NCBI GenBank assembly: GCA_903916205.1
Contig: CAIWVX010000338.1
Location: 1 to 5,779 of the forward strand
Source: an uncultured beta proteobacterium
Lineage (GTDB): Bacteria; Pseudomonadota; Gammaproteobacteria; Burkholderiales; Rhodocyclaceae
Length of the DNA: 5,779 bases
Direction: 5' to 3'
Below the pieces are notes generated by a model. That model had not been told where the DNA came from. It was given only the letters and a program-made list of their open reading frames with translations, and ran no database searches. This document shows positions 2,846 through 4,155 of this stretch, piece by piece. Within the stretch, counting starts at the first letter, position 1, and each line of letters starts with the position of its first letter. Both the position numbers and the translations under genes were made by a program.

Positions 2846-4015
2846 TTAAAAAGGCCCGGCATCTGCCCGTAGTGCAGCGGCTTTGTCGGTGTTCTCCCAA
2901 GTAAACTCGGGCTCTTCGCGACCAAAGTGACCATAAGCGGCTGTTTTCGCATAGATCGGACGCAGCAGTTTAAGCGTTTGAATGATCCCCTTCGGACGCA
3001 GGTCGAAATGTTTGCCGATCAGTTCGACAATTTTTTCTTCACTTATTTTGCCTGTGCCAAAGGTTTCGACCATCAACGAAACCGGCTTGGCAACACCGAT
3101 GGCGTAGGCGATCTGAACTTCACAACGCTCAGCAAGCCCGGCCGCAACGACGTTTTTAGCCACATAGCGTGCGGCATACGCGGCTGAACGATCGACTTTC
3201 GACGGGTCTTTGCCGGAGAAAGCGCCGCCACCATGACGAGCGGTGCCACCGTAACTGTCAACGATGATCTTGCGACCGGTCAGGCCGCAGTCACCGTGCG
3301 GCCCGCCAACAACGAAGCGACCTGTCGGGTTGACGAGGAAGCGGGTTTTATCTGAGAGCAGTTCTTTCGGCAGGACAGGCAGAATGATGTCCTTGATGAC
3401 GGCAGCGGAAAGGTCGGCGTGCGAAATTTCCGGGCCGTGTTGGGTCGAAACCACCACGGTATCAATATGAACCGGCTTGCCATTTACATAGTTAACCGAA
3501 AGTTGGCTTTTGGCGTCGGGGCGTAGCCAAGGCAAGCGACCATCTTTGCGTACCTCGGCCTGACGTTGCATAAGGCGGTGAGCGTAGTAAATCGGTAGCG
3601 GCATGAGCGACGGAGTTTCATTACATGCATAACCGAACATCAACCCCTGATCGCCCGCACCTTGATCCAGATCGAGGCCCTGGCCTTCGTTAACTCCTTG
3701 AGCGATGTCCGGTGACTGGCGGTTAATGGCCGTCAAAATGGCGCAACTCTTGTAGTCAAAACCGATGTCGGAATCGTTGTAACCGATGCGACGCACCGTT
3801 TCCTGTGCGATTTCGCGATAATTGATGTTGGCGGTAGTGGTGATCTCTCCAGAAATCACCACTAGCCCGGTAGAAACCAGTGTTTCGCAGGCGACACGGG
3901 CGGTCGGATCAACCGCGATAATCGCGTCAAGAATCGAATCCGAAATTTGATCGGCCACTTTGTCCGGGTGGCCTTCAGAAACGGATTCAGAAGTAAAAAG
4001 AAACGTGTTTGACAT
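2846..4015 (-). CDS. metK: S-adenosylmethionine synthetase (methionine adenosyltransferase)
   Basis: This cytosolic enzyme joins methionine and ATP to form S-adenosylmethionine, releasing phosphate and pyrophosphate. The 389-residue length fits the family (E. coli about 384). Signatures seen: S-E-G-H-P-D-K at 13-19 with the ATP-binding His, G-A-G-D-Q-G at 119-124, the phosphate-binding loop G-G-G-A-F-S-G-K-D at 262-270 followed by [10 protein letters not shown], and the C-terminal Y-G-H-F-G-R near 361-366. The open frame continues 63 codons upstream to 4204, but that stretch lies over the promoter, leader hairpins and terminator. The conserved [12 protein letters not shown] start and GGAG at 4025-4028, nine bases upstream, fix the true start at 4015. 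The gene has its own promoter and a structured leader. It is divergent from the acyltransferase gene. Confidence 0.98.
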
Positions 4016-4024
4016 GTTCTGCTG

Positions 4025-4028
4025 CTCC
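4025..4028 (-). promoter_or_regulatory. Ribosome binding site of metK, inside a possible masking stem
   Basis: GGAG lies nine bases before the ATG. The overlapping GAGCAG (4022-4027) is perfectly complementary to CTGCTC (4073-4078), which flanks the terminator hairpin on its other side, so folding of the leader could hide the site. Confidence 0.75.
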
Positions 4029-4032
4029 AAAT

Positions 4033-4072
4033 AAAAAACCCCGTTACGGCGGCGTTGCCGGCTCCGGGGTTT
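4033..4072 (-). terminator. Intrinsic terminator / attenuator in the metK leader
   Basis: On the minus strand AAACCCCG (4065-4072) pairs with CGGGGTTT (4036-4043), eight base pairs, and the sequence runs into six T (4033-4038). The enclosed segment can form its own small hairpin, CGGC (4057-4060) with GCCG (4050-4053). It lies downstream of the metK promoter and five bases before the ribosome binding site, so it would end metK transcripts early unless prevented. No upstream gene on this strand needs a terminator here, which favours attenuation. Confidence 0.8.
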
Positions 4073-4155
4073 GAGCAGACGACGCTTTAGCAGTATTTTG
4101 AAGTCTCTTTTGACTTCATTCGCCCTGCAAGTTGTCCTGATTAACTCGGCGAATG
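4073..4155 (-). ncRNA. Structured metK leader, candidate SAM-sensing RNA
   Basis: The transcript would begin near 4154. It opens with an eight-base-pair stem, CATTCGCC (4148-4155) with GGCGAATG (4117-4124), around a 23-base loop; the first base may fall just before the start. A second hairpin follows, TGAAGTC with GACTTCA (about 4099-4118, sharing two bases with the first). Then come TGCTAAAGCG and the terminator. The loop (GAGTTAA...CTTGCAG next to the 3' stem strand) and the later GCTAAA recall the SAM-II riboswitch, and GCAG (4125-4128) can pair with CTGC before TAAA. Spacing differs from SAM-II and the extra hairpin is unusual. That there is structure is well supported; the ligand is a guess. 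Confidence 0.45.

Follow-up and report, generated by a model that had tools for sequence, protein, structure and literature searches.

A SAM-II-like pseudoknot predicted to switch off metK in beta-proteobacteria

Introduction

The SAM-II riboswitch (RF00521, SAM_alpha) is an H-type pseudoknot of two helices, P1 and P2, in which the motifs GAnUU, CUUGC, and GCUAAAG follow one another in that order, and it belongs to methionine-cycle genes such as metX, metH, metY, or metA. Passages of one source give nucleotides U10–U12, U20, U21, G22, C23, G42, C43, U44, and A45–A47 as completely conserved, with U11 and U21 contacting the sulfonium, U44 the adenine, and A47 the methionine end of the ligand (PMC3764141). 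SAM-V (RF01826) shares a core with this RNA. In the available text of one account, its Shine-Dalgarno sequence lies inside helix P2a in most members, and its U8, the equivalent of SAM-II U10, makes a hydrogen bond to the uridine partner of the ligand adenine (PMC6061858); SAM-V is also described in tandem with SAM-II in Pelagibacter (PMC2704228; PMC11508383). Two other relevant families are the SAM-II long loop (RF01726) and the SAM/SAH riboswitch (RF01727), the latter a small pseudoknot in metK leaders that is described as restricted to Rhodobacterales.

SAM-II is mentioned in beta-proteobacteria (PMC2704228). For metXW and metZ of beta-proteobacteria, the available part of a 2014 study reports an RNA that forms a pseudoknot with a terminator-antiterminator and is given no ligand; in that part, SAM-II sites are placed only in Rhizobiales and Rhodobacterales, the element is not assigned to SAM-II, and its named targets do not include metK (Leyn 2014, PMC4239095). 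We found no account in open-licence papers of a metK element of the kind described here.

We analyzed a 5,779-nucleotide stretch of DNA (the window) from an uncultured beta proteobacterium, in which metK, the gene for SAM synthetase, is preceded by a leader with 12 of the 13 SAM-II pocket nucleotides. Sequence comparison makes it very likely that this pseudoknot binds SAM and then shuts metK by transcription termination together with masking of the ribosome-binding site, and the leader RNA is probably a SAM-responsive off-switch. If it works as predicted, it would be an RNA feedback sensor on SAM synthetase across beta-proteobacteria and would also suggest that the metXZ element, for which the 2014 study gave no ligand, responds to SAM.

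Results and discussion

Architecture of the metK leader

The features of the window are collected in Table 1. The SAH riboswitch before ahcY and the predicted SAM sensor before metK serve neighboring steps and lie within about 3 kb of each other. The idea that the sequence comes from a plasmid was rejected, as a search for plasmid matches gave none. Between metK and the HD-domain gene lies an imperfect palindrome of ~168 bp (2613–2780), which is a palindromic mobile or REP-like repeat and recurs at five more places on other contigs of the genome (four full-length at 93–95%, one partial).

Table 1. Features of the window, with the metK leader (4155–4016, minus strand) read from promoter to Shine-Dalgarno region.
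Feature	Positions	Strand	Sequence or pairing	Basis or remark
ahcY	3–959	minus		partial in window
SAH riboswitch before ahcY	1065–1137	minus		RF01057, 63.6 bits, cut-off 37; a different known family
HD-domain protein gene		minus		
metK, methionine adenosyltransferase (SAM synthetase)	2846–4015	minus		TIGR01034, 613 bits, cut-off 309.4
Lysophospholipid acyltransferase gene		plus
Sugar epimerase-like gene		minus
Sigma-70-like promoter	4189–4161	minus	TTGACC-17-TACAAT	consensus scan, 10/12 matches; similar sequence in same-genus leaders
P1 stem-loop	4117–4155	minus	AUUCGCC 4154–4148 with GGCGAAU 4124–4118	loop with UUGCAG
Third strand	4147–4141	minus	GAGUUAA	SAM-II nucleotides 8–14; a relative aligns in register to Rfam SAM_alpha
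P2 5' strand	4136–4125	minus	GAC 4136–4134 (P2a), CUUGCAG 4131–4125	covaries with 4093–4081
Inserted hairpin	4117–4100	minus	GAAGUC 4117–4112 with GACUUC 4105–4100	between P1 and the 3' pseudoknot strand
P2 3' strand	4093–4081	minus	CUGCUAAAGCGUC	CUGCUAAAGC 4093–4084 (SAM-II 40–49) plus GUC 4083–4081 (P2a)
Element named in the original prediction	4093–4083	minus	CUGCUAAAGCG
Predicted antiterminator/antisequestor hairpin	4085–4052	minus	GCGU-GUC-GCUC (within 4085–4073) with GAGC-GGC-ACGC (within 4064–4052)
Anti-Shine-Dalgarno strand	4078–4073	minus	CUGCUC	pairs with 4027–4022
Intrinsic terminator hairpin	4072–4033	minus	AAACCCCG...CGGGGUUU	ends in a six-T run; −20.0 kcal/mol
Shine-Dalgarno region	4028–4022	minus	GGAGCAG	GGAG 4028–4025; nine bases from GGAG to ATG 4015

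The original prediction suggested that this leader may be a divergent SAM-II-like or separate SAM-responsive attenuator, with a near-consensus promoter, a stem-loop, a second hairpin placed between UUGCA and GCUAAA elements, and a GC-rich terminator next to the start. Judged by the comparisons below, that guess was largely right. The promoter, both upstream hairpins, and both sequence elements are present, and transcription is predicted to begin near 4154, where P1 has its 5' edge. P1 has seven pairs in the predicted fold and a possible eighth (4155–4117). The terminator has the eight outer pairs proposed for it (4072–4036) and its six Ts (4038–4033, the first three inside the stem), but the gap to the Shine-Dalgarno site is four bases (ATTT) rather than five. 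A simple terminator scan reported none in the leader because it allows only loops of 3–8 nucleotides, whereas an internal loop interrupts the window hairpin. Neither the switching helix nor the anti-Shine-Dalgarno strand described below had been proposed, nor had the tandem arrays and the breadth of the family.

Only 1 of 200 dinucleotide shuffles of the leader folded as stably (z −3.24). Because the leader is conserved through the family, where a covariance model finds it in 119 of 121 genomes, we do not regard it as a chance fold.

Relation to known SAM riboswitches

The metK RNA resembles SAM-II in its H-type pseudoknot, in the order of the three motifs, and in its association with methionine-cycle genes. 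It differs in that U10 is replaced by G and both G13 and G18 by A, which turns the G18–C49 pair into A.C, in the P2a pairing of GAC with GUC, in an optional hairpin that separates P1 from the 3' strand, and in standing before metK rather than metX, metH, metY, or metA. It also falls below the Rfam cut-off: RF00521, with its gathering score of 36 bits, did not match the window at all up to E 10. In a metK relative that lacks the inserted hairpin (L055), SAM_alpha was the best of 4227 Rfam families and aligned in register, at 14.8 bits. Moreover, R1, our covariance model of the metK leaders, and RF00521 matched the same stretch at five places in the family, all before metX (G014, G077, G084, G418, and G441), and two of these exceed the Rfam cut-off (G077, 44.0 bits; G084, 39.2), which bears out the SAM-II-like reading.

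The other described families fit less well. The metK RNA shares a core and, by prediction, translational control with SAM-V, but it occurs in other taxa and its P2a strand is followed by a separate anti-Shine-Dalgarno strand; its P2a GUC occupies 4083–4081 and the Shine-Dalgarno region starts at 4028, unlike the arrangement in most SAM-V members. No RF01826 row appeared in six Rfam scans, one of them run at the gathering score only. The SAM-II long loop has a similar 3' strand around UGCUAAAGC and was rejected at 14.1 bits (cut-off 44) with an alignment that was out of register and used the inserted hairpin as P1. RF01727 reached 10 bits in the window, against a gathering score of 40, and lay out of place on the terminator. 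We also rejected a CRISPR RNA (20.3 bits, cut-off 70) and a tRNA or tmRNA origin (ARAGORN found none in seven loci, including the window's own, L002).

Like the 2014 metXZ element, the metK RNA is a pseudoknot with a predicted terminator-antiterminator and is found in the same class; the targets differ, metXW and metZ there and metK here. The metX leader L121 of the family scores as RF00521 (44.0 bits) and also matches R1. A c-di-GMP-I-GGC match (50.9 bits, cut-off 59) lies beside metX at the same locus (L121:3555-3636, plus). We place the metK RNA in the SAM-II/SAM-V kind as a separate sub-type, usually with G10 and with A13 and A18.

Distribution of the leader

Among 148 genomes, comprising the window's own and those of relatives, blastn with the leader gave matches in 141 (E ≤1, including weak ones). 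Conservation stood out in the P1 loop and in the CUGCUAAAGC strand together with the sequence after it. The R1 model was derived from 29 leaders and contained no structure other than P1. It matched 119 of 121 genomes in the family and 151 of 300 in the order at E 0.1, with no match at that threshold in the other 149. In a sample of the class, 8 of 232 genomes matched at E 0.01: the window's own, two of its order, and five from outside it. Among these five, the match stood before an AAA/MoxR gene in two and as a tandem before an unassigned gene in one; in the remaining two (L281 and L285), the core was not seen by pattern. A pattern scan of named genomes gave at least 118 stretches. Titles among the 80 listed include Accumulibacter, Dechloromonas, Thauera, Cupriavidus, Polynucleobacter, Chromobacterium, Bordetella, and Burkholderia, and some give only Proteobacteria or uncultured bacterium as lineage.

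Over 176 fetched loci, R1 made 190 matches, some genomes being represented twice. Most of these (127/190) lie directly before metK, a SAM gene, 125 of them at a distance of 43–111 nucleotides and two at 240. Another 40, counting both copies of tandems, precede a small orphan gene whose product starts M(Y/F)DC; the rest are before AAA_5/MoxR (5), metX (2), or three other genes (4), or are unassigned (12). Our two alignments, A3 and A4, partly overlap (the L083 stretch is contained in L224), so the 190 matches are not 190 independent genomes.

The hairpin that separates the two conserved elements proved to be a variable insertion, divergent in sequence within the genus and short or missing in many relatives. 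In the metK leaders of G442 and G410 (L288 and L289), P1 and the 3' pseudoknot strand are separated by an insertion of ~150 nucleotides, with flanks AGCTTGTGAA / TTCACAAGCT, and R1 splits each aptamer into two matches.

Covariation of the pseudoknot and the SAM-II pocket

All pocket and pair counts were made in A4 alone, whose rows were found by similarity to metK leaders; A3 (81 rows) was not used for the core, most of which is fixed by its exact search pattern. The pseudoknot was absent from the model that made the alignment. Comparison across beta-proteobacteria shows covariation of P1, of the pseudoknot helix P2 that the two sequence elements of the original prediction imply, and of two alternative downstream pairings. 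First, among 103 distinct rows, pair 24/41 is A-U in 43, G-C in 41, U-A in 1, and G-U in 5, with 13 rows gapped, and pair 25/40 is G-C in 90, A-U in 6, and G-U in 2. Second, both sides change in four of the six P1 pairs counted in these rows. Third, when P1, P2, and P2a are taken together, 96.7% of cells pair, compared with 31.6–46.2% in six versions with the strands slid; none of 500 shuffles reached the observed pairing, and 8 of the 15 pairs change on both sides.

SAM-II numbers were placed on the leader by pocket identities, the Rfam alignment, and the sequence of the SAM-II crystal RNA, with positions 13, 18, and 49 counted on from these. On this numbering, U11, U12, U20, U21, G22, C23, G42, C43, U44, A45, A46, and A47 are each present in 63/63 metK rows. 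Position 10 is the exception among the 13, with G in 60 rows and U in 3; the window leader has G at 4145. A guanine at this position could still make a hydrogen bond of the U10 type.

Competing pairings in the expression platform

In the proposed switch, SAM binding would hold GUC (4083–4081) in P2a by pairing with GAC (4136–4134). With P2a locked, the antiterminator could not form, and the terminator (4072–4033) would form instead, inside a larger hairpin in which CUGCUC (4078–4073) masks GAGCAG of the Shine-Dalgarno region (4027–4022); locking of P2a would thus lead, through loss of the antiterminator, to termination and Shine-Dalgarno masking. In the absence of SAM, GCGUCGUCUGCUC (4085–4073) would pair with GAGCCGGCAACGC (4064–4052), and metK would be transcribed and translated because this helix traps the 5' terminator half together with the anti-Shine-Dalgarno strand. 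The whole would form a feedback loop on SAM synthetase. The antisequestor pairing in this helix is GCGUCGUC:GGCAACGC. The helix competes with P2a for one GUC, which makes the two mutually exclusive.

The 127 metK matches yielded 115 distinct platforms, the rest being duplicates or having no accepted start codon, and energies were calculated for the 112 platforms of 60–125 nucleotides. The anti-Shine-Dalgarno strand paired with its own Shine-Dalgarno region at a mean of −12.8 kcal/mol, against −8.9 when partners were permuted between leaders (0/10000 as low; 112 leaders, relatedness uncorrected). Likewise, the last aptamer strand plus the anti-Shine-Dalgarno strand paired better with its own downstream segment than with permuted ones (−13.75 versus −12.39, 0/10000; 112 leaders, relatedness uncorrected). 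This downstream segment reads GGCnACGC in many taxa, and a GGY-ACGY motif occurs in 60 of the 115 platforms (mean 6.85 and maximum 11 in shuffled sequences). Base counts in the 84 platforms with a countable aptamer strand (31 with the strand spelled otherwise were left out, and 16 of the 84 have no motif) follow the pairing: among platforms with the motif, an ACC triplet on the aptamer side faces GGU in 9/9, and a G(C/U)C triplet faces GGC in 38 and GGU in 21. One group of leaders has a different complementary pairing, GUCGCAG with CUGCGAC or CUGCGGC, and some of the 31 left-out platforms pair otherwise. The antisequestor energy stands out weakly when set against dinucleotide shuffles (112 leaders: mean z −0.61, p ≤0.05 in 7%; window, 0.55); the antisequestor claim rests on the between-leader permutation and the base counts, both uncorrected for relatedness.

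In the window, the antiterminator helix (−14.1 kcal/mol) is present in the predicted folds of transcripts ending at 4052, 4048, and 4040, and the terminator takes over from transcript end 4036; the predicted best folds at ends 4036 and 4033 also open P1. The anti-Shine-Dalgarno hairpin with the terminator inside it reaches −27.3 kcal/mol. For the full leader, the fold program, which is unable to represent a pseudoknot, gave −44.8 with the pseudoknot strands blocked, −42.2 with the antiterminator forced, and −48.0 unconstrained; in this full-length best fold, 4093–4089 pairs with the Shine-Dalgarno region.

The terminator is not general among metK platforms: a strict test finds it in 26/115 (2–6 in shuffled sequences) and a lenient test in 40/115 (shuffled 10–12). 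An SAM-sensing aptamer with a constitutive terminator, in which masking of the Shine-Dalgarno sequence alone exerts control, would suit the 89 of 115 platforms that fail the strict test and the generality of the anti-Shine-Dalgarno pairing. We think this arrangement unlikely for the window: of the 30 nearest leaders, 26 have a terminator by the strict test, and in the window the loop of the competing hairpin contains the terminator's 5' half.

Two aptamer versions in fixed tandem order

The window's genome has a single R1 match, at metK, and a single RF00521 match above the cut-off, a canonical SAM-II of 42.4 bits before metH on another contig (L122:1501-1578, plus; contig C202); a terminator immediately precedes the start. 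In the family, 66 of 121 genomes have an RF00521 match at E 0.001, 22 of them above the cut-off. Among 30 RF00521 loci from this search, 17 precede metH and 11 metX, with 2 unassignable, and nearly all have a terminator within 130 nucleotides (lenient 30/30, shuffled 12–14/30; strict 29/30, shuffled 1–6).

Canonical copies carry G13/G18 and the metK type A13/A18. Positions 13 and 18 are A/A in 87 and G/G in 14 of the 103 rows, and the change from G/G to A/A takes pair 18–49 from G-C (14) to A.C (88). Where both copies of a tandem pass R1, the first is G/G and the second A/A in 15/15 rows, which represent 14 distinct loci because of the alignment overlap; two of the first copies have G10. Nine more tandems read by eye have the same order (L032, L044, L086, L096, L098, L106, L118, L280, and L283), the first copy being scored weakly by R1 in seven of them, and in total the canonical version comes first and the variant second in 23/23 distinct tandems seen. 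A terminator lies between the copies in all 15 tandem pairs by the lenient test (shuffled 5–7) and in 14 by the strict test (shuffled 1–3). Two apparent tandems that might have broken this order, in G442 and G410, were rejected as tandems, being the single metK aptamers with very long insertions that R1 splits. The combination of SAM-II with SAM-V in Pelagibacter offers a known parallel (PMC11508383; PMC2704228).

The presence of two sub-types per genome, in fixed tandem order, offers a direct test of how small changes near the pocket set affinity or the choice of output. A bolder reading, which we advance tentatively and rather doubt, is that the metK RNA is a SAM-riboswitch class of its own and not a low-scoring SAM-II. 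The coordinated change of G13/G18 to A13/A18, usually with U10 to G, would then split the aptamer into transcriptional and translational sub-types, of which the translational one would read a different SAM range or another adenosyl ligand, and beta-proteobacteria would use both in one genome, stacked in fixed order as two-threshold or two-input switches.

A related alternative keeps the fold and changes the ligand, with G10, A13, and A18 re-tuning the pocket toward SAH or another adenosyl compound. In its favor, the SAM-V equivalent of U10 bonds the uridine partner of the ligand adenine, SAM-I variants that read spermidine are described in a passage of PMC10853860, and the constant order of the 23 tandems is what one would expect if the two versions differ in function. 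Several observations make this alternative improbable. The contacts to the sulfonium (U11 and U21), the adenine (U44), and the methionine end (A47) are invariant in the metK rows; U10 is found in 4 of the 127 metK matches, so the change at this position occurs without a change of gene; and the product of metK makes SAM. The weakest alternative is a leader that has no small-molecule ligand and is controlled solely by a protein or by the speed of transcription: attenuators with competing hairpins are known, but the fixation of 12 of 13 published SAM-II pocket positions and the presence of the same RNA at metX, metK, and other genes make it highly improbable.

Tandems of the two versions stand before the M(Y/F)DC gene at L082, L083, L091, L093, L104, L111, L119, and other loci. 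Its product is an orphan of ~100 amino acids, of which two examples had no Pfam match, and a MATE transporter homologue is present in the fetched stretch at 27/27 M(Y/F)DC loci. Copies of such tandems also precede genes with no Pfam matches at L032, L044, and L103. The variant aptamer precedes an AAA_5/bpMoxR-like gene at L038 (2765–2983), L110, L279, and L283, of which L279 and L283 are not in the window's order; at L038, the variant comes shortly after an Rfam match to SAM-I/IV (44.5 bits), giving a tandem of two SAM aptamer families. Finally, at L280 (1577–1699, plus), a match to RF02424, the Burkholderia sRNA Bp2_287 (35 bits, cut-off 70), lies on the strand opposite to a SAM-II tandem, and the RF02424 annotation may represent the wrong strand of a riboswitch.
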